Source of the DNA: a virus
IMG/VR virus record: IMGVR_UViG_3300010885_033773
Location: 1 to 61,499 of that record
Reading direction: 5' to 3' (one strand)
Length of the DNA stretch: 61,499 bases
The notes beneath the pieces are model-generated. The model did not search any database. It saw only the letters and a program-made list of their open reading frames with translations, and was not told the origin of the DNA. The number at the start of each line of letters is the position of its first letter. Within the stretch, counting starts at the first letter, position 1. A program made the translations under genes and the position numbers. Below, in pieces: positions 2,937 through 61,499 of the stretch.

Positions 2937-5402
2937 CTAACTAGCCTGACGCATTCCACGCTCGGCAAGGCTGACCAACAGGTCACCGACCATAGACGTT
3001 TCTTCCTCTTCATCGCTCTCTGGCGCACCGTCAATGGCACGGTTCACCACAGCCCTCTTAGCGTCGATTAGGGCGGCGATGTCCTCGTCAATGGTGTTCT
3101 CGGTGAGCATGAGCCAGCCGGTCACAGAATCTTGCTGACCGATACGGTGGCAACGGTCAACGGCTTGTTCCATTTCTGCCGGTGTCCAGCCTTGCTCAAT
3201 GAACAGCACGTCACTAGCGGCGGTCAAGGTCAAACCAACTCCCGCCGCCTTTATCTGGCACGAAATCACCTTTTGCTCGTCGCTATTTTGGAATAGGTCG
3301 ACATACGCCTGACGCTTCTCAATGCTGATACCGCCCTGAATCTTGACGTTGTTCGCAAATTCCTCTGCGACCATATCTACGACAACCTTGTGCCAACCGA
3401 ACACCACAAGTTTCTTGTCTTGGGCAAGGAAATCGTCTATCCACTCTCTCGCTGCGGTCATCTTTGCCTTAGCGGCAAGTTGCTTCAAGGTGGCGATAGA
3501 GACAAGGTGTTCGGCGGCTCTCGCTCGTAGGGCACGTTGCCACGCCTCACGTTGTGCTTCCTCTGTATCAGCACCACTCTCTAGGGCAAGTTTCATGGCA
3601 AGTTCGGACAGATACTTGACGATGTTCGCCTCTGCTTCCCGATACTCTTTCATCACCTTGGGGTCACCCTCAACAATGATTTGCGACCAACGCTTCGCTG
3701 GTAGTTCGGTCAGCACTTCTATCTTGCGCCGACGGACGTAGCACGACGAACGCAGTTTGCGGTTCAGCAACGCAAGCGACTTGTTGCTCGCTCGCCCATA
3801 GGTGTTGCGGAACTTTGTCGCACCGCCAAACAGTTCGTCTAGGCGATAGATAATTCTCAACTGCGTCATTATTTCTAACGGTTGATTGACGATAGGCGTG
3901 CCCGACAGACAGACACGGATACCGCCTTCAGCAACCCTGTCCGACAGTTGGATGGATGCCTTGCTTCGTATCGTGCGCCCGTTTTTGACGTAGTGACTTT
4001 CGTCTAGGACTATGCCCTTTACGCTCACAAACTTGTCAACCCAATTGTCAAGAATGTCGTAGTTGATAACGTAGACATCAGCGTCGGGTAGGTTGCCACT
4101 AGTACCCGATAGAACCTTGACTTGGATACCGGGAATCCACTGTTCAGCCTCACGCTTCCAGTTCAGTTTGAGGCTCGCAGGGCAGACAATAACGGCAGGG
4201 AACGACTCCGTAGCCTTCAGCAACGCCAAGCCTTGACACGACTTGCCTAGCCCCATTTCGTCGCCAATCAGCACGCCACCGTCAATGTCAAAGATGCGCT
4301 TCCACTTGTCGTCGTGATACTCGTAGCCCATACGCTTTAGCGAATATGCCACGCCTGCTCGTTGGAATGGAAACAGTTGGAACTTGTCTGTGCCGAATCC
4401 GGGAATGGTGATGTCTGCGTCGTGGGCGGCACTTGCGTCAATGACTTCACGCATACTCGCCGCATCGTTGAGTAGTTGTCGGGCTTCGGGCGTAAGAACA
4501 GCACCACGCTCTTGAACAAACGCCAATACTTCGTCGCTCGCCTCAATGGGGACTAGCCACGCTCTATTGGTTGCCGACCAGATAGAACCGGGCATTTGTC
4601 GCACTTGGCTAATCAAGTTTGCGTCGTAATCAAACGACAGTGCGAACGACCCATCGTTCACACGAATCAGCACGCCTTCTTTAACGTCCATTTCGGGCAA
4701 CCGCTTCACGTCAGCCGACATAAACAGGTTGTATTCGTTCGCTATTTTGCGAACTGAGCCGACGCTCTCTTTGGGGAGTATCCACTCTTTGTGTTCAGCG
4801 TTCCAACGCCGTGAGGGGATAGTGCGGATAGCGTCAAGAATCGCAGGGTGGTATTCAAACTTGACGACTAGGTGACCGTGTTCCAGCGTCACAGTGCCCA
4901 TGTAGTGTGGGGCGATAGGGGCTTCAGCCGTGTCAAGAATTGCTTTGGCTCGCTCTGTCACGGGAACTTCAAACCGTTGCGCCCACGACAGGACTAACCC
5001 ATACTTGCTTGGTGATACTTGCCACCCACGAAGGTCACGGTTCCACACTGCGCTCAGTGCGGTCTTGGGATACGCTACGTCGCCGTAGGGAAGAAACACC
5101 AAGACCTTGCCAGCCTTGACATCAATGGCTCTTACGTCCTTGCTCTTTTTAACGTCTGGCGGTTCAGGGATAGCGTCGTAATCCAAACCAGCGGCGGTGA
5201 TTTGTGAACGATACTTGTGGAGCATTTCCCACGCATGACGTTGTAAAGGCTCAGTCCAAACTTCGGGTGGCATTACGGCTAACTGCTTGCCAAACTTAGT
5301 ATCAGTGCCGTTGAAACCCTTGCCGTCATTACTGCTCGCACCGTCACAGTTGCGTGCGACAGCCAATAGGGCGTTGACTAAAAGTTCATCAGGTAACGAC
5401 AT
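2937..5402 (-). CDS. SNF2-family DNA translocase with HARP-like N-terminal repeats
   Basis: 821 residues. The C-terminal two thirds is a superfamily 2 SNF2 motor. Walker A G-D-E-M-G-L-G-K-S is near residue 380, the Walker B box D-E-S-H near 466, S-G-T-P follows, and motif VI D-R-C-H-R-I-G-Q is near 750. The first ~330 residues hold three related segments, each ending in a W-x-x-x-x-x-x-W pattern, that resemble the HARP repeats of SMARCAL1. That family rewinds single-stranded DNA and remodels forks. I set the start at the ATG at 5400-5402 rather than the TTG at 5408. A TTGACG-17-TACAAT promoter ends 8 nt upstream of the ATG, so the mRNA is probably leaderless. A role in fork repair or recombination is inferred from the family and the nearby RusA gene. 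Confidence 0.9.
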   Translation of the reverse strand: MSLPDELLVNALLAVARNCDGASSNDGKGFNGTDTKFGKQLAVMPPEVWTEPLQRHAWEMLHKYRSQITAAGLDYDAIPEPPDVKKSKDVRAIDVKAGKVLVFLPYGDVAYPKTALSAVWNRDLRGWQVSPSKYGLVLSWAQRFEVPVTERAKAILDTAEAPIAPHYMGTVTLEHGHLVVKFEYHPAILDAIRTIPSRRWNAEHKEWILPKESVGSVRKIANEYNLFMSADVKRLPEMDVKEGVLIRVNDGSFALSFDYDANLISQVRQMPGSIWSATNRAWLVPIEASDEVLAFVQERGAVLTPEARQLLNDAASMREVIDASAAHDADITIPGFGTDKFQLFPFQRAGVAYSLKRMGYEYHDDKWKRIFDIDGGVLIGDEMGLGKSCQGLALLKATESFPAVIVCPASLKLNWKREAEQWIPGIQVKVLSGTSGNLPDADVYVINYDILDNWVDKFVSVKGIVLDESHYVKNGRTIRSKASIQLSDRVAEGGIRVCLSGTPIVNQPLEIMTQLRIIYRLDELFGGATKFRNTYGRASNKSLALLNRKLRSSCYVRRRKIEVLTELPAKRWSQIIVEGDPKVMKEYREAEANIVKYLSELAMKLALESGADTEEAQREAWQRALRARAAEHLVSIATLKQLAAKAKMTAAREWIDDFLAQDKKLVVFGWHKVVVDMVAEEFANNVKIQGGISIEKRQAYVDLFQNSDEQKVISCQIKAAGVGLTLTAASDVLFIEQGWTPAEMEQAVDRCHRIGQQDSVTGWLMLTENTIDEDIAALIDAKRAVVNRAIDGAPESDEEEETSMVGDLLVSLAERGMRQAS

Positions 5403-6864: not shown

Positions 6865-7200
6865 TTAGTTTTGTTTGTTAGCCCCGATAACGTCACGGGC
6901 CAAACTTGCCTTTGATTCATTGTCTTTGGCTCGTTGTGCCAACTCGTCAATTTTGCTTCCGCCGTTAGAGCGTTCAAGTTTACTGCCGTTGAGAAAGTGT
7001 TGCGATGCTTCTTTGTGCGAGGCTTGTGCGTGTTCCCAGCGACCATTACGCAAGTAAGTGTCTCCACGTTTTTCAGCCTTTTCACCAGCCTTAACGTGGT
7101 CGGAAACGCCAGAACTGTACTGATTACCGTGGAAAGCGTGACCCATGATGTCACCCTTGGTGAGAGGGTACAGAAGTTCGTTAGTGGTGAAGCCGGACAT
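6865..7200 (-). CDS. Tagged paralogue 4 (G-H-x-F-H-G-N-Q-Y family)
   Basis: 111 residues, the last and most divergent of four tandem genes that share an N-terminal tag. Here the tag reads M-S-G-F-T-T-N-E-L-L, then K-G-D-I-M-G-H-A-F-H-G-N-Q-Y. The rest is charged and helical with no recognised domain. AGAAGG lies 10 nt before the ATG. The gene follows the previous paralogue with almost no gap. The shared tag with differing bodies suggests a common destination or processing step; the function is unknown. Confidence 0.75.
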   Translation of the reverse strand: MSGFTTNELLYPLTKGDIMGHAFHGNQYSSGVSDHVKAGEKAEKRGDTYLRNGRWEHAQASHKEASQHFLNGSKLERSNGGSKIDELAQRAKDNESKASLARDVIGANKQN

Positions 7201-7202
7201 AA

Positions 7203-7580
7203 TTAAAAAACCTTCTCGCCAGTAATCCTGTGAAAGCCCGATTGATTAACAAAACGAGGGCGTTCACCTGAGTCATGATAGCCGTCATACCAAGCGTCAG
7301 GCTCATTGCGGTCATCTGCCCTATCCAAAGCCCCTTCAGCACCACCGGAACGCCACCCACGAGCGTATTGGCGTTTGTACTCTTTGACTGCTTCACGGTC
7401 GCTTGGATTAACACGCTGGTGTTCATTTAACTGAGTACTACCGTCTGACTGACCCTCTTGGTATTGGTTACCGTGAAATGGGTGTCCAGGTAAATCACCC
7501 TTAGCAATGGGGTAGTTGCTGGCAGATTTCAGTAGCGAAGCAATGGAGAAGCGTTCGTTTGGATGAAAACCTGAAGTCAT
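7203..7580 (-). CDS. Tagged paralogue 3 (G-H-P-F-H-G-N-Q-Y family)
   Basis: 125 residues. The N-terminal tag (about residues 1-40) matches its neighbours: M-T-S-G-F-H, L-L-K-S-A-S-N-Y-P-I-A-K-G-D-L-P-G-H-P-F-H-G-N-Q-Y. The C-terminal ~80 residues are charged, rich in Arg and Asp, with W-Y-D-G-Y and Y-A-R-G-W-R-S-G-G segments and no family I recognise. Its start AAGGACTAGTGAA-ATG is nearly identical to that of the next gene upstream, and it includes the dispersed TAGTGAAAT motif. Confidence 0.8.
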   Translation of the reverse strand: MTSGFHPNERFSIASLLKSASNYPIAKGDLPGHPFHGNQYQEGQSDGSTQLNEHQRVNPSDREAVKEYKRQYARGWRSGGAEGALDRADDRNEPDAWYDGYHDSGERPRFVNQSGFHRITGEKVF

Positions 7581-7594
7581 TTCACTAGTCCTTG

Positions 7595-8020
7595 TTATTC
7601 TGAAAGTTGACGCTCTGAGGGCGATGGTTCTAGCAGGTCACGCTGACGACGAGCCGCTCCCGTTGCCAAGCCAGCCTCGTTGGTTGCTTCGGGAGTGTTG
7701 GCGATAGATGCACGGGTGTGGGCTTCCGAGGCATCGGCGTGGAGGTCTGCAAGTTGCTGATAGCCCCTAGCCCCCTCAATGTCCCCCTCTGCGTGGCGTT
7801 GGTCTGCCGTGCGTTCGGCTTCCTGTGACTTCTGCCTATGAACATCTGAAAGGTGGCTGTGGTATTGCTGCTGTGGACTTGGAGAGCCACCTGCCCCCTG
7901 CGTGTACTGGTTTCCGTTGAAGGGGTGTCCGGGTTGCGCTCCGCTACCGGGACCGCCCTTAGCGATGGGGTAGTTGCTGGCTGACTTTAGAAGTTCACTG
8001 GTGTGGAAGCCTGATGTCAT
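7595..8020 (-). CDS. Tagged paralogue 2 (G-H-P-F-N-G-N-Q-Y-T family)
   Basis: 141 residues. The tag has an insert (K-G-G-P-G-S-G-A-Q) before P-G-H-P-F-N-G-N-Q-Y-T. The body is Ala, Gln and Glu-rich and should form long helices (roughly residues 55-130), with several H-A-x-A-S-E-A-H-like heptads. The start is AAGGACTAGTGAA-ATG. The body shows little similarity to those of the adjacent paralogues, so the tag appears to have been joined to different domains. Confidence 0.8.
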   Translation of the reverse strand: MTSGFHTSELLKSASNYPIAKGGPGSGAQPGHPFNGNQYTQGAGGSPSPQQQYHSHLSDVHRQKSQEAERTADQRHAEGDIEGARGYQQLADLHADASEAHTRASIANTPEATNEAGLATGAARRQRDLLEPSPSERQLSE

Positions 8021-8038
8021 TTCACTAGTCCTTACTTG

Positions 8039-8530
8039 TTAGATTTTGGCGGTAGCGGCAAGGGCATCAACGCTGGCTTGCGTTGCCAAATCAGTCAAGT
8101 GGTCAGAGTGACCCTGCTTTTGAGAAATGTATGCATCCTCGCCGTATTCGCTCTCACGCCGAGGCAACAAGGCAACAGCAGAAGCAGCGTGGTGTAATGC
8201 GGCAGCCTGTAAGTGAGCCTGAATAGCCTTATCTACTGCTTCGCCCTGACCACTCGCAACACCGTGCTTAGGGACCCGGTCGCCACCGAGGAGACGCTCT
8301 GCCATACGCTCGTGGTCACGAGCAAGTACACGGTGCGCTACATCACGCCCCTCTTTGTCATACCCCTCGGAAGGCTTACTCGCAACTTTGGTTGCTCTGA
8401 TGGAGATTTCACTTGCCATCTGCGTGTACTGATTTCCGTGGAAGGAGTGTCCGGGTAGGTCGCCTTTAGCAACGGGATGGTAGTTTGATGCCGATTTCAG
8501 CAACTCGTTGGTATGAAAGCCTGAAGTCAT
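8039..8530 (-). CDS. Tagged paralogue 1 (G-H-S-F-H-G-N-Q-Y-T family)
   Basis: 163 residues, the first and longest of the four. The tag reads M-T-S-G-F-H-T-N-E-L-L-K-S-A-S-N-Y, then A-K-G-D-L-P-G-H-S-F-H-G-N-Q-Y-T. The body is helical, Ala and His-rich (for example H-L-Q-A-A-A-L-H-H-A-A-S-A), probably a helical bundle. The ribosome binding site AAAGGA is 7 nt before the ATG. G-H-x-F-x-G-N-Q-Y/W motifs are seen in phage head-associated proteins (general recollection), so virion association is possible. Confidence 0.8.
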   Translation of the reverse strand: MTSGFHTNELLKSASNYHPVAKGDLPGHSFHGNQYTQMASEISIRATKVASKPSEGYDKEGRDVAHRVLARDHERMAERLLGGDRVPKHGVASGQGEAVDKAIQAHLQAAALHHAASAVALLPRRESEYGEDAYISQKQGHSDHLTDLATQASVDALAATAKI

Positions 8531-56271: not shown

Positions 56272-57774
56272 CTAGAAGAGCGTGTCATTCTTACCTGCCT
56301 TGTCCGTTGCCCACGCAACACGGGCTTCAATAATCGCCCAATATTCCTCGGTCATTTCGCATCCAATCCACTCAAAGCCTTCCAAGATGGCGGCAACTGC
56401 GGTAGTGCCCGAACCAAGGAACGGGTCAAGCACTGTTCCGCCTGGGGGTGTCACCAACTTGACTAGGTATCGCATTAGGGCTAGTGGCTTGACGGTGGGG
56501 TGGATATTGGCAGTTACCTTGGAGCGAGTCTTATATGGCACTTGCATTGCGTCTTGGCCTTCATCTCGCCCGGTCAGCATTTGTTCCGGCAGTCCTTCCA
56601 GCCCAGCGTTGCGCTCGGACTTGGAAGCCTTAGCGCAGTAGAAGAAACGTGCGGCGGAGCCTTCATCGCCAAAATCACGGATAGTGCCTTTGGTTGGCTT
56701 TATCCGATACTGGCTTTCATCAAGACGACCTTCATCATTTTGAACAACACGGTATTTGCCTTTATCGGTTGCTGGAAACCCTGCCAGCACTTCCTCTGAC
56801 CCGTCAAGGATTACGTTGGCAGGCCAGCGACCTTCAGGCTTGTAGGTGGCGACTTCCTTGCCGATAAGTGCTGATGCGCCGAACGCACCCTCAATCGCAC
56901 CCTCGCTGTGTTTTTGACGTTGCACACGGTCAAAGTTCACCTCACCGCTTGCGTAGCCCACCCTCGACCCGTCAATGTTCAACGCACCAGTTCCGTACGT
57001 CAGAACGTTGTTAGCGACAGTCCCGATTAGTGGCTTGCGTGCGACCACGATTGGTTCGTGGGCTGGCTTTAGAGCAGTACCCCAGCCTTGCCATTGTTGG
57101 GCTTCGGGTGAAATGGCTTTGTTGCTCAGTTGTTTGCCAGTGAAGTTGCCAACAGTGTTTCCCGTTCCGCCAGCAAGACCACCCGTAGCCTCAACATAGC
57201 CACGCTCGGCAACATTGTTGGGAATAATCCAGTCCCACTCATCAGACAAGCCAATGACCCGTTTCATTGTTTTCCATTTTTCGGGCGTTGGGTGGTTGGT
57301 ACTCCAATAATCCTTGCCGTCTGTCTTGGCATAAGAGCAAGCGGTGAAGCCACATTCATCGTCTATTTGCTTACGAGGCTTTCCGCAGTTGGCGATTTGC
57401 TCGCCCAACCATTTCTTGAACCCAATGGTGGAAAGTGCTTCAGGTTTTTTGTCTATCGCCTTACTCACGTCAAGCGACTTGGGAAATCCCGAACCGTAAA
57501 TCCAGTGGATGCTGTCACGTATCTCAAATCCTGCGTCCTCTATGGCTACGACCATGCGGTGATACGTCCGTGTTCCGCCAAAGGCGAGCAGATGCCCGCC
57601 CGGTTTCAGAACACGCAGACACTCTTGCCAAACGGCGACGTTATAAGCGATACCCGTGTTATCCCACGATTTGCCCATAAACGACAATTCATAAGGTGGG
57701 TCGGTGACGACGCTATCTATGCTGTTGTCCGGCAACGTCTTGAGGGTATCTAGGCAACTGCCCTTGAGCAACAT
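56272..57774 (-). CDS. DNA methyltransferase C (500 residues)
   Basis: Motif IV T-D-P-P-Y-E is near residue 26 and motif I D-P-F-L-G-S-G-T-T near residue 445, so it is beta-class. Between them is a large target-recognition region with an HTH-like insert (F-K-K-W-L-G-E-Q, then R-K-Q-I-D-D-E-C-G-F), followed by W-Q-G-W-G-T-A-L-K-P-A-H-E-P and a single G-S-A-A-R-F-F unit. It is the shortest of three tandem paralogues. Its ATG overlaps the stop of the next paralogue upstream. Confidence 0.9.
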   Translation of the reverse strand: MLLKGSCLDTLKTLPDNSIDSVVTDPPYELSFMGKSWDNTGIAYNVAVWQECLRVLKPGGHLLAFGGTRTYHRMVVAIEDAGFEIRDSIHWIYGSGFPKSLDVSKAIDKKPEALSTIGFKKWLGEQIANCGKPRKQIDDECGFTACSYAKTDGKDYWSTNHPTPEKWKTMKRVIGLSDEWDWIIPNNVAERGYVEATGGLAGGTGNTVGNFTGKQLSNKAISPEAQQWQGWGTALKPAHEPIVVARKPLIGTVANNVLTYGTGALNIDGSRVGYASGEVNFDRVQRQKHSEGAIEGAFGASALIGKEVATYKPEGRWPANVILDGSEEVLAGFPATDKGKYRVVQNDEGRLDESQYRIKPTKGTIRDFGDEGSAARFFYCAKASKSERNAGLEGLPEQMLTGRDEGQDAMQVPYKTRSKVTANIHPTVKPLALMRYLVKLVTPPGGTVLDPFLGSGTTAVAAILEGFEWIGCEMTEEYWAIIEARVAWATDKAGKNDTLF

Positions 57775-60323
57775 TAGAACAACCCGTCTTGTGTCGGTTG
57801 CGTGATTTGGTTTTCAGCCCACGCAATACGGGCATCAATGATTTGCCAATAGTCGGGGGTGATTTCACACCCAATCCAATCAAAGCCTTCCAAAACAGCA
57901 GCGACGGCGGTAGTGCCTGAACCCAAGAACGGGTCTAAGACTTTTCCACCAACCGGCGTGACCAGACGAATCAAGTGTTGCATCAGTGCGACGGGCTTGA
58001 CCGTTGGGTGGAAGTTTTGTGCTGGTTTGGTGTCGAAACGCTCGAAACCTGCCGAAACGGTGTCGCTTGTGTTATTTGCAGTGCGAAACATTTTGCTGTT
58101 TGAGCGTATTTCTAGTCCTTCCAGACCAGCGTTCTTATCCGCCTTACTGGCTTTTGCCATGTAGATGAAAGGTGGAAAGTCTGGTTTGGTCTTTGTAAAG
58201 AAGCGAGAAGCAGAGCCACCGTCTGCGTAGCCGTCGGCTGCGTTCTTTTCACCAGCCAAGCCGACACTGTGTTCGTTGTCGCCACCCTTGCGAAAGCCCG
58301 ACGTAGAACCGTTGCCCGTGCTGGCTGTTTCGGGGAATTGCACTGTTGGGCAGTCTATTGAACACTCCCAACCCGTCGTAGTGAAAAACCGTGAGGCAGA
58401 ACCGCTATCGCCGTATTCTGCGTCGTGATTTACACCACCAATGCCGAACATGGAACTGTCAGACCTATCAACCGACGGGTCATAGGGCTTGGGGCTTTTG
58501 CCGGTGTTCGGGAACATTTGGGTTGGACAGTCTGCCGAACATTCCCATTCTGTCTGGGTAAAGAACCGTGCCGCCGAACCACTATCGCCACCAAAGTTCT
58601 GTGTGATTTCCCTACCAGCGTAAGCACCGAAAGTTCCAGCCTCTTTGCCGTTGTCGGCGTGGTTGGGGTTGAGAGAGCCTGACTTGGTGCTAGGGAAGTT
58701 CATCGTGGGGCAGTCTGCCGAGCATTCCCAACCCGTCGTGGTGAAAAACCTAGATGCAGAACCCACGGTATTGTCGCTACGACTAGTCTCGTAGTTCGTT
58801 GCTTCCCCATCATTATTGAAGTGTCGTGCGCCTTGTGTGGTGTTCCATGTTCCACCCTTCGCTTCGGGGAACATTTGCGTCGGGCAATCGGCGGAACACA
58901 CCCATTCGGTTTGCGTAAAGAAACGGGCGGCCGAGCCTTCATCTCGGTAGTCGTGTGACCTTTCGGTGAGGTTCTGCTCGCTACCTCCAAACATCAAACC
59001 ACCCTTTTTGCCGTTATTTGGATTTCCGATACGAGTGCTTTTACTGTCAGGGAAGTTCAGCGCAGGGCAACCCTCAGCGCAGTTCCATACGTTCGTGGTG
59101 ATGTTTTGTCCTACGAAACCGTCATGTTCGTAGCCATTTACAAATCCCGAACTTGCCTTTGCGCCACCCCCTGCGATTTCACTAGTCGTGCCGACCTGAC
59201 GGCAGAGAGGCGAGTGTGTGATAATCGTGTTGGCAGGCCACCTGCCAAGGTCTTTCAGTTTGGATAGGGCTTCCTGCTGACCGGGGCTTTCCAAAACCCT
59301 TGCGTTGTATTCATCGTCAGTTTCACCTTCCCGTCGGGTGGCAAGTTTCGTGATGGGGCGACCCTTTAGGTCGTCAAAGTTTTCACCACTTGCGCCAACA
59401 CGGGTAGCGTCAATGTTGATAGCCCCCGTTCCCCATTTGAGAACGTTCTGGGCGACGGTCTTTTCACTAAGGGGCTTACGAGCGACGACGATGGGTTCGT
59501 GAGACGGTTTCAGGGCTGTTCCCCAGCCTTGCCATTGTTGGGCTTCGGGAGTGGCTGGGGCGGTGATGTCAACCCTCGTTGCCTTTAGACCGTACTCGTG
59601 AGAACCACCAGCCGCTCCATTTTTTACCCCCACCGACTTACTTCCCACAACCGCACGTTTGGCTTCCTCAATAGAGGTGAAAGGCAACCCAAACTTTTCA
59701 CAAATCAAATTGAACTGACTTGCTGTTGGCAAGTTCATGCCAAGTTCCCAGTTGGCGACACACCCCGTCAAGTTGCCTGTTTTGGAAGGGAACAAGGCGG
59801 CGATTTCTTTTTGTGAAATCCCGTTTTCCTCACGCCAATTGCGAAGCCACTGTCCAAACCAGCCAATGTCGGCACCACCACGCTTGTCTATGGCCTTGCT
59901 GATGTCCATAGATTTCGGAAAGCCACTGCCGTATGTCCAATGGATACTGTCTCGGATTTCAAATCCGGCATCTTCGATAGCGCACGCTAGGCGGTGATAA
60001 GTCCTTGTTCCCCCAAAGGCTAGGAAGTGCCCACCCGGCTTTAGAACACGCAAGCACTCCTTAGCGATTTCAGTAAACCACTCTTGGAACGCCAGCATTT
60101 CCTTGTGACCCTTGTTGTAGCGAACACCACTTGTAAATCCCTTGTCGTGGAACACGCCGTTGGTCTTTTTGTCGGTCACGGATACGACTTCAGCATTACG
60201 CCACGGTGCATCCCAATCTTTCCCCATAAATTCCAATCCGTATGGGGGGTCGGTCACAATGCTGTCCACCGAATTGTCCGGCAGGGTTTTCAGCATTTCT
60301 AGACAGTCGCCTTTGAGAAGCAT
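57774..60323 (-). CDS. DNA methyltransferase B with expanded repeats (849 residues)
   Basis: It has the same plan as its neighbours: T-D-P-P-Y-G (near 26), an Xre-like HTH insert (E-N-G-I-S-Q-K-E-I-A-A-L-F, V-A-N-W-E-L-G), W-Q-G-W-G-T-A-L-K-P-S-H-E-P, then motif I D-P-F-L-G-S-G-T-T near 810. In between, a unit of 58-62 residues occurs five times (W-x-C-x-x-x-C-P-x-x-x-F-P, then G-S-A-A/S-R-F-F-T). Its relatives have one. The start ATG at 60321-60323 overlaps the upstream TAA. The repeats make it unusually long. Confidence 0.9.
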   Translation of the reverse strand: MLLKGDCLEMLKTLPDNSVDSIVTDPPYGLEFMGKDWDAPWRNAEVVSVTDKKTNGVFHDKGFTSGVRYNKGHKEMLAFQEWFTEIAKECLRVLKPGGHFLAFGGTRTYHRLACAIEDAGFEIRDSIHWTYGSGFPKSMDISKAIDKRGGADIGWFGQWLRNWREENGISQKEIAALFPSKTGNLTGCVANWELGMNLPTASQFNLICEKFGLPFTSIEEAKRAVVGSKSVGVKNGAAGGSHEYGLKATRVDITAPATPEAQQWQGWGTALKPSHEPIVVARKPLSEKTVAQNVLKWGTGAINIDATRVGASGENFDDLKGRPITKLATRREGETDDEYNARVLESPGQQEALSKLKDLGRWPANTIITHSPLCRQVGTTSEIAGGGAKASSGFVNGYEHDGFVGQNITTNVWNCAEGCPALNFPDSKSTRIGNPNNGKKGGLMFGGSEQNLTERSHDYRDEGSAARFFTQTEWVCSADCPTQMFPEAKGGTWNTTQGARHFNNDGEATNYETSRSDNTVGSASRFFTTTGWECSADCPTMNFPSTKSGSLNPNHADNGKEAGTFGAYAGREITQNFGGDSGSAARFFTQTEWECSADCPTQMFPNTGKSPKPYDPSVDRSDSSMFGIGGVNHDAEYGDSGSASRFFTTTGWECSIDCPTVQFPETASTGNGSTSGFRKGGDNEHSVGLAGEKNAADGYADGGSASRFFTKTKPDFPPFIYMAKASKADKNAGLEGLEIRSNSKMFRTANNTSDTVSAGFERFDTKPAQNFHPTVKPVALMQHLIRLVTPVGGKVLDPFLGSGTTAVAAVLEGFDWIGCEITPDYWQIIDARIAWAENQITQPTQDGLF
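58190..59095 (-). repeat. Five tandem ~180-bp units in methyltransferase B
   Basis: Each unit encodes C-S-A-D-C-P-T-x-x-F-P near its start and G-S-A-S/A-R-F-F-T-x-T at its end. The ends are well conserved and the middles differ, suggesting duplication followed by divergence. Confidence 0.8.
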
Positions 60324-61499
60324 TAGAACAACCTTTCCATAGTGGTCGCAGGCTTTTCCACCTGCGTTTGTGCCCAAGCGGTGCGACCCTCAATAATCGG
60401 CCAGTAGTCCTCAGTCAGTTCGCAACCGACCCATTGGCAGTTTTCTAGCAGTGCCGCTACCGCCGTCGTTCCGCTACCCAAGAATGGGTCAAGAACCAGA
60501 CCGCCCCGTGGTGTTACCAGACGAACCAGATGGCGCATAAGGCTCACGGGCTTCACGGTGGGGTGAAAGTTCTTGGCAGGGGCTTTGATAGAGCCGTACT
60601 TGTCGCCCACATCGGTCAAGCCACCACCACCGACGGTTTGCTTTGTTTCCAAATCACCAAGACCTTCGCTGCGTTCTCGGCTAGAGGCTTTGGCTTGGTA
60701 GATAAAGGGCGGAAAGTCGATTTCGTCGTATTCCGTGTTGGTGAAAAAACGTGAAGCACCGCCATTGTCGTTCATTGTGCGTGCTTGGTTGGGCTTGTCT
60801 TTGTGTGTGCCACCTGCGCCAAACGCACCGATTTCACTACGCCCACGAACCGCAGGAAAAGTTCCGCCGGGTCTGATACCACTTTGCGTATCAAGTTCCA
60901 GCGCAGGGCAACCCTCAACGCAGTTCCAAATCGCTGTGGTTGATTCCGTAACCGCACCGCCGTTGTTGTTTTCACCACCCTCGAACGACCCTGCGAACCC
61001 CTTGCCGTTGGTGGTGATGATAGTTTCGCTTTTTGTTCCTACCTGTCGGCAATCCGGCGAGTGGGTCAAGATGGTGTTGGCAGGCCAGCGTCCTAGCGAA
61101 GTGTCGGGCCGTTCTACATCCTTGCGCCCTTCATCATTGACATCGGGGGCTGAACCAGCCTTAAGGTTGCTAGTCACTTTCCCTTGTGGCGTGGCACTTG
61201 CTCTATCTGCTTCGCTCTGATGCGCCACCCGTGACCCGTCAATGTTCAGCGCACCAGTTCCGTAAGTCAGAACATTATTAGCCACTGTGCCGACGACAGG
61301 CTTTCTAGCAACGACGACAGGCTCGTGGCTCGGCTTTAGAGCAGTACCCCAGCCTTGCCACTTTCTAGCGTCGTCTGTGGCTGGTGCTTTGTATTCGTAT
61401 GTACCCGTAGTGGAGTTAGCGTTCCAGCCATTTTCGTCATCAAACGGCTTGACATTTCGTGAGCGTGTGCCAACTACCTCGGTACGCTCCGCTCCAGCC
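60323..61499 (-). CDS. DNA methyltransferase A, partial (runs off right edge)
   Basis: The last ~391 residues are seen; the frame is open to the window's right end. Visible are W-Q-G-W-G-T-A-L-K-P-S-H-E-P, A-N-N-V-L-T-Y-G-T-G-A-L-N-I-D-G, one W-N-C-V-E-G-C-P unit, G-G-A-S-R-F-F-T, then motif I D-P-F-L-G-S-G-T-T. Motif IV must lie outside. It is the third tandem paralogue and is coupled to methyltransferase B by TAATG. Confidence 0.9.
   Translation of the reverse strand, partial: AGAERTEVVGTRSRNVKPFDDENGWNANSTTGTYEYKAPATDDARKWQGWGTALKPSHEPVVVARKPVVGTVANNVLTYGTGALNIDGSRVAHQSEADRASATPQGKVTSNLKAGSAPDVNDEGRKDVERPDTSLGRWPANTILTHSPDCRQVGTKSETIITTNGKGFAGSFEGGENNNGGAVTESTTAIWNCVEGCPALELDTQSGIRPGGTFPAVRGRSEIGAFGAGGTHKDKPNQARTMNDNGGASRFFTNTEYDEIDFPPFIYQAKASSRERSEGLGDLETKQTVGGGGLTDVGDKYGSIKAPAKNFHPTVKPVSLMRHLVRLVTPRGGLVLDPFLGSGTTAVAALLENCQWVGCELTEDYWPIIEGRTAWAQTQVEKPATTMERLF

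Follow-up and report, generated by a model that had tools for sequence, protein, structure and literature searches.

A candidate multispecific beta-class DNA methyltransferase of a phage with five tandem target-recognition-like units

An amino-methyltransferase encoded in a 61,499-nucleotide stretch of viral DNA (IMG/VR record IMGVR_UViG_3300010885_033773; hereafter the window) carries, in place of the usual single unit, five head-to-tail units with conserved ends and strongly divergent middles, each middle being closest to the sole corresponding segment of a different phage enzyme. We think it rather probable that this protein, methyltransferase B, is a multispecific beta-class phage methyltransferase whose five units are tandem target-recognition domains (TRDs). 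From the position of the units and the exchange of their middles we infer their identity as TRDs, with the variable cassette as the base-reading part and each of the five presumably working and acting singly.

Methyltransferase B and its unit array

Methyltransferase B is encoded by a single uninterrupted open frame of 849 aa (57774..60323, minus strand, as are all features of the window given below). The protein matches the Pfam family PF01555 (N6_N4_Mtase; 121.1 bits against a gathering cut-off of 26.7, E = 8.6e-35) and the PHROG family phrog_67 (E = 5.1e-81) and, judged by its sequence, is a beta-class amino-methyltransferase of predicted N6-adenine or N4-cytosine type; the C5-methyltransferase family is absent among its Pfam and NCBIfam matches, the enzyme being of the DPPY/PF01555 type instead. 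The order of its motifs fits the beta class, viz., the catalytic motif IV (DPPY, aa 25-28, 60240..60251; invariant in a 70-sequence alignment), the TRD region, the motif X region (HPTVKP, aa 772-777, 57993..58010; likewise invariant in the alignment), and the cofactor motif I of the FxGxG form (LDPFLGSG, aa 796-803, 57915..57938; recognized from sequence and alignment), with both the catalytic and the cofactor motifs intact. The TRD of beta-class enzymes sits between a VIII-like motif and motif X. The initial annotation had noted the units between the catalytic motifs, where the target-recognition part was expected, and it is indeed between the VIII-like motif (EPIVVARKP, aa 276-284) and motif X that they are seen. 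This interval contains, in order, a variable slot S1 (aa 309-359, 59247..59399), which lies between NIDATR and GRWPAN; the GRWPAN motif itself; the motif HSPLC (59202..59216), which follows GRWPAN and is the first half of a proposed His/Cys metal site; a second variable slot, S2 (aa 375-410, 59094..59201), between HSPLC and unit 1; and the five units.

The array was originally placed at 58190-59095, and translation bears this out with five units at 58194..59090, each of 56-60 aa with a repeat period of 58-62 aa: unit 1 (58914..59090, aa 412-470; middle 58938-59054), unit 2 (58740..58907, aa 473-528; middle 58764-58871), unit 3 (58557..58733, aa 531-589; middle 58581-58697), unit 4 (58380..58550, aa 592-648; middle 58404-58514), and unit 5 (58194..58373, aa 651-710; middle 58218-58337). 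All five share a W-x-C-x3-C-P motif, an FP dipeptide, a variable middle and a terminal GSA[AS]RFFT; the end was first described as GSASRFFT, but units 1 and 3 read GSAARFFT, and the unit starts alternate between EW and GW. The conserved ends and variable middles of that first description correspond, respectively, to a family-wide frame and to cassettes. A DNA repeat finder independently recovered 4-5 copies at a spacing of 174-183 nt, and the unit junction pattern occurs four times in the window against none expected from 100 shuffles. When 2.9 million viral contigs were scanned for this pattern, matches in a methyltransferase frame were confined to this phage, and a scan of a genome collection gave none in a methyltransferase frame among the matches listed. 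Pairwise comparison of the unit flanks, which are 54-76% identical, gave near-saturated pS (0.70-1.04) with low pN (0.09-0.30), indicating that the unit copies are old and that selection on the protein has preserved them.

Exchange of middles and unit number among relatives

Each middle of methyltransferase B was scored against the single middles of its relatives, with 200 shuffles per unit. For each of the five, the best match is the only middle of a catalytically intact phage methyltransferase with one unit, a different enzyme in every case. These matches score 74-151, as against 29-43 for sibling units, and in no case does any of the 200 shuffles attain the score of the match. The match is modest for unit 1 (L414; score 74, 19/43 identical) and higher for unit 2 (L300; 149, 26/33), unit 3 (L338; 137, 25/39; also matching L337 and Mycobacterium phage BigNuz gp55), unit 4 (L010; 101, 20/34), and unit 5 (L012; 151, 30/40). 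In the donors inspected for units 2-5 (L300, L337, L010, L012), this segment is not preceded by a Cys pair, so that the common part runs from about FP to GSA rather than over the whole unit. The slots S1 and S3 of the TRD region also assort independently: across 238 relatives, 162 protein pairs resemble each other in the S3 middle, with S1 also shared in 10 and clearly different in 151. Moreover, one and the same cassette is found in different slots (top score 120, shuffle maximum 58). The S1 cassette of methyltransferase B recurs at 85% identity in L228 and also in L031 and L076, and its S2 cassette at 83% identity in slot S2 of L228, the same cassette standing in slot S1 of L012_5211. By these sequence comparisons, the middles undergo modular exchange as short segments of recognition type, like the TRDs of type I and type III systems in Helicobacter.

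We propose that the conserved frame (W-x-C-x3-C-P..FP and GSAxRFFT) would present a variable cassette of 35-40 aa as the reader of DNA, and that the single catalytic domain would serve whichever cassette is docked. Several different sequences would be methylated in this way, which would protect the phage genome against several restriction enzymes. The array may have arisen by duplication of the single unit present in relatives, its middles being exchanged from a pool of cassettes circulating among phage methyltransferases. The slots S1 and S2, being shared, might contribute an element of recognition that every target has in common. Because two or more slots vary in single-unit enzymes, an S3 cassette by itself might specify no more than a portion of a site. 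Among the three roles initially suggested for the units, several specificities is the one favored by the single use of cassettes in intact enzymes and by the location in the TRD region, while an extended DNA contact appears less likely. The third, metal binding, is probable for the frame and not for the variable part. An H-x3-C motif after GRWPAN is present in 18 of the 18 relatives that have C-x3-C, and both motifs are missing from 230 (another three H..C calls among relatives are chance matches). The Cys pairs are thus probably part of a four-ligand metal site, of His/Cys type, that belongs to the frame. In methyltransferase B, the set is complete for unit 1 only, with units 2-5 contributing two Cys each, and these could form Cys4 sites if the units pair.

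A survey of unit number, suggested along with the initial annotation, gave one unit as the rule: a single unit end was found in 248 of 275 non-redundant family frames, a count that does not represent a population frequency because the relatives were gathered by similarity to methyltransferase B, its sister and L382, and the unit-end pattern may miss diverged units. Exceptions are L382, which has four units, and L391, which is its sister in the tree and has two, the repeat in both starting at GRFPAN rather than W-x-C; L071 and L311 with two units each; and L012_3913, described below. A second pattern match in L347 looks like chance, and in BUCT618, Cr-LKS3 and FreddyB the long enzyme proved to have one unit with unrelated insertions. 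In Mycobacterium phage FreddyB (L472; gp67, gp69), the insertion is intein-like (GCLTDD...FITGN) and stands immediately ahead of SGFPKS, with the C-terminal cofactor part encoded separately as gp69. Searches with the unit array (tblastn) gave only single-unit matches in named phages, viz., the mycobacteriophages BigNuz and Nazo, and none in plasmids; in 396 genomes of one phylum, the family matched in 24, nearly always by the C-terminal core only. A quick maximum-likelihood tree built from catalytic-core sequences (210 rows, with weak support at many forks) places the multi-unit enzymes on separate branches, implying that expansion happened more than once, and groups methyltransferase B with the one-unit L018, whose core is 86% identical.

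Certain relatives have lost catalytic function. L012_3913 lacks both DPPY and FxGSG, has a doubled TRD region and adjoins an intact enzyme; such catalytically dead versions lie at L012:3914-5224 (also in L013) and L393:2393-3334, each immediately upstream of an intact enzyme from this family. METTL14 beside METTL3 offers a comparison case for a specificity partner, and by analogy these dead relatives could serve their intact neighbors somewhat similarly. Tentatively, and with less conviction than for methyltransferase B itself, we suggest that phage beta-class methyltransferases might constitute a modular reading system, in which cassettes of 35-45 aa occupy the equivalent slots S1, S2 and S3, move between phages and slots, and form tandem arrays that yield a multispecific enzyme, with the dead L012 (of doubled TRD region) and L393 proteins perhaps acting as specificity subunits for an active neighbor.

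Competing readings of the array

The units might instead act jointly as one long DNA-reading array that binds a single extended site, somewhat in the manner of zinc-finger arrays. Such an arrangement would suit the regular tandem, whose units keep their ends and Cys pairs but vary in the middle, and the alternation of EW and GW starts hints at two-unit blocks. We nevertheless regard it as unlikely in view of the occurrence of every cassette alone in intact one-unit enzymes and the differing unit number between close relatives; we would further reason that a very long and rare site is of little use in self-protection.

It is also improbable, in our assessment, that a single unit, either the first or the last, reads DNA and that the remainder are inactive passengers or spacers serving stability or protein contacts. 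Low pN at near-saturated pS is seen in the frame codons of all five units, and all five middles resemble working cassettes of other enzymes. In favor of such passengers are the adjacency of the H-x3-C partner to unit 1 only and the outcome of structure prediction, which counts against the tandem-TRD reading as well. The AlphaFold model, which had been proposed as a check, has low confidence over units 2-5, where pLDDT has block means of about 23-43; for the single-unit sister, block means over the TRD region are 38-68. In both models the catalytic core alone is resolved, and Foldseek returned core matches only, namely CcrM, M.BceJIV and M.RsrI.

Our estimate is lower still for the array as a store of alternative cassettes for recombination, with the active specificity shifting over time. 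Exact matches between units reach 6-11 nt at most, which together with the flank identity noted above makes for a poor substrate of homologous recombination, and all units lie in one translated frame, even though cassettes have evidently been transferred from protein to protein and from slot to slot and domain movement is known in the Helicobacter type I and type III systems (PMC3983042). Finally, an assembly or binning artefact that joined several one-unit genes can practically be dismissed: the window is a metagenome contig and the overlapping contig L009, from another IMG/VR record, stops within unit 4 (covering units 1-3 in full and unit 4 almost entirely, with unit 5 on the window contig alone), but exact runs of at most 11 nt are too short for an assembler to confuse the units, L009 is identical to the window at 3,111 of 3,111 bases and continues 4.3 kb past its end, and L382 provides another, different multi-unit enzyme, rendering unlikely the misassembly against which the initial annotation had cautioned.

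Known systems and the gene neighborhood

The reading of methyltransferase B as a multispecific enzyme has a precedent in another class. Multispecific m5C methyltransferases are described from the Bacillus phages SPR, SPbeta, phi3T, rho11 and H2, along with M.phiBssHII, in which several short TRDs in a variable region confer protection against several restriction systems (PMC12707154 and PMC8936443, with the literature cited there). Methyltransferase B resembles these in being one phage enzyme with several short TRD-type segments, its own multispecificity being predicted, and differs from them as a beta-class N6A/N4C enzyme (PF01555) with five TRD-like units and a Cys pair in each; its catalytic domain belongs to another class and, consequently, it is not a member of that group. 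Multispecificity by tandem TRDs is already known for m5C enzymes, and methyltransferase B is, by its sequence features, a like architecture in an unrelated enzyme class. Within the beta class, the solved enzymes CcrM, M.BceJIV and M.RsrI are closest to it in catalytic-core fold and sequence, and their chains of about 250-370 residues are too short to accommodate five such units. The single-unit enzymes of phrog_67/PF01555 (BigNuz gp55, the sister in L009) have the same core and frame with homologous cassettes, but one unit as against five. A further parallel is provided by the type I HsdS and type III Mod proteins of Helicobacter pylori, whose TRDs move between genes and slots (domain movement, DoMo; PMC3983042), as the cassettes do here; HsdS, however, has two TRDs and a bipartite site, whereas the five units lie inside the methyltransferase polypeptide. 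In the titles, abstracts and few passages of the open literature that were covered, a unit array of this kind is not described for a beta-class enzyme, which speaks weakly for its novelty.

Should every unit recognize a sequence of its own, a short cassette within a constant frame would suffice to give an adenine or N4-cytosine methyltransferase its specificity, a long-standing wish of enzyme engineering, and the natural cassettes with their one-unit relatives would make a recognition code readable by methylome sequencing. It would also mean that phages had arrived independently, in another class of enzyme, at the one-enzyme-many-systems protection of the Bacillus phages, and that recognition parts circulate as a shared pool.

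Methyltransferase B is flanked by two sister methyltransferases. The upstream one (60323..61498, cut off at the end of the window but complete with 504 aa in L009) carries a single full unit with a Cys pair, and the downstream one (56272..57774) has one Cys-free unit consisting only of FP..GSAARFFYCAKAS (GSAARFFY type); the initial assignment of one unit to methyltransferase A and a remnant to C holds only when A denotes the upstream gene. The three tandem genes (56272-61498) overlap at TAATG, which suggests translational coupling, and their products all end in ..LF. Two more, different amino-methyltransferase-like genes stand in tandem at 314-1414 and 1407-2597, so that the phage encodes at least five such proteins. 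Elsewhere in the window, four successive small ORFs (6865-8530) share an N-terminal stretch like MTSGFHTNELLKSASNYPIAKGDLPGHPFHGNQY, followed in each by unrelated sequence. Upstream of the methyltransferase genes, L009 (30-3293) encodes a 1087-aa protein with four copies of KGDxxGHxFHGNQ.
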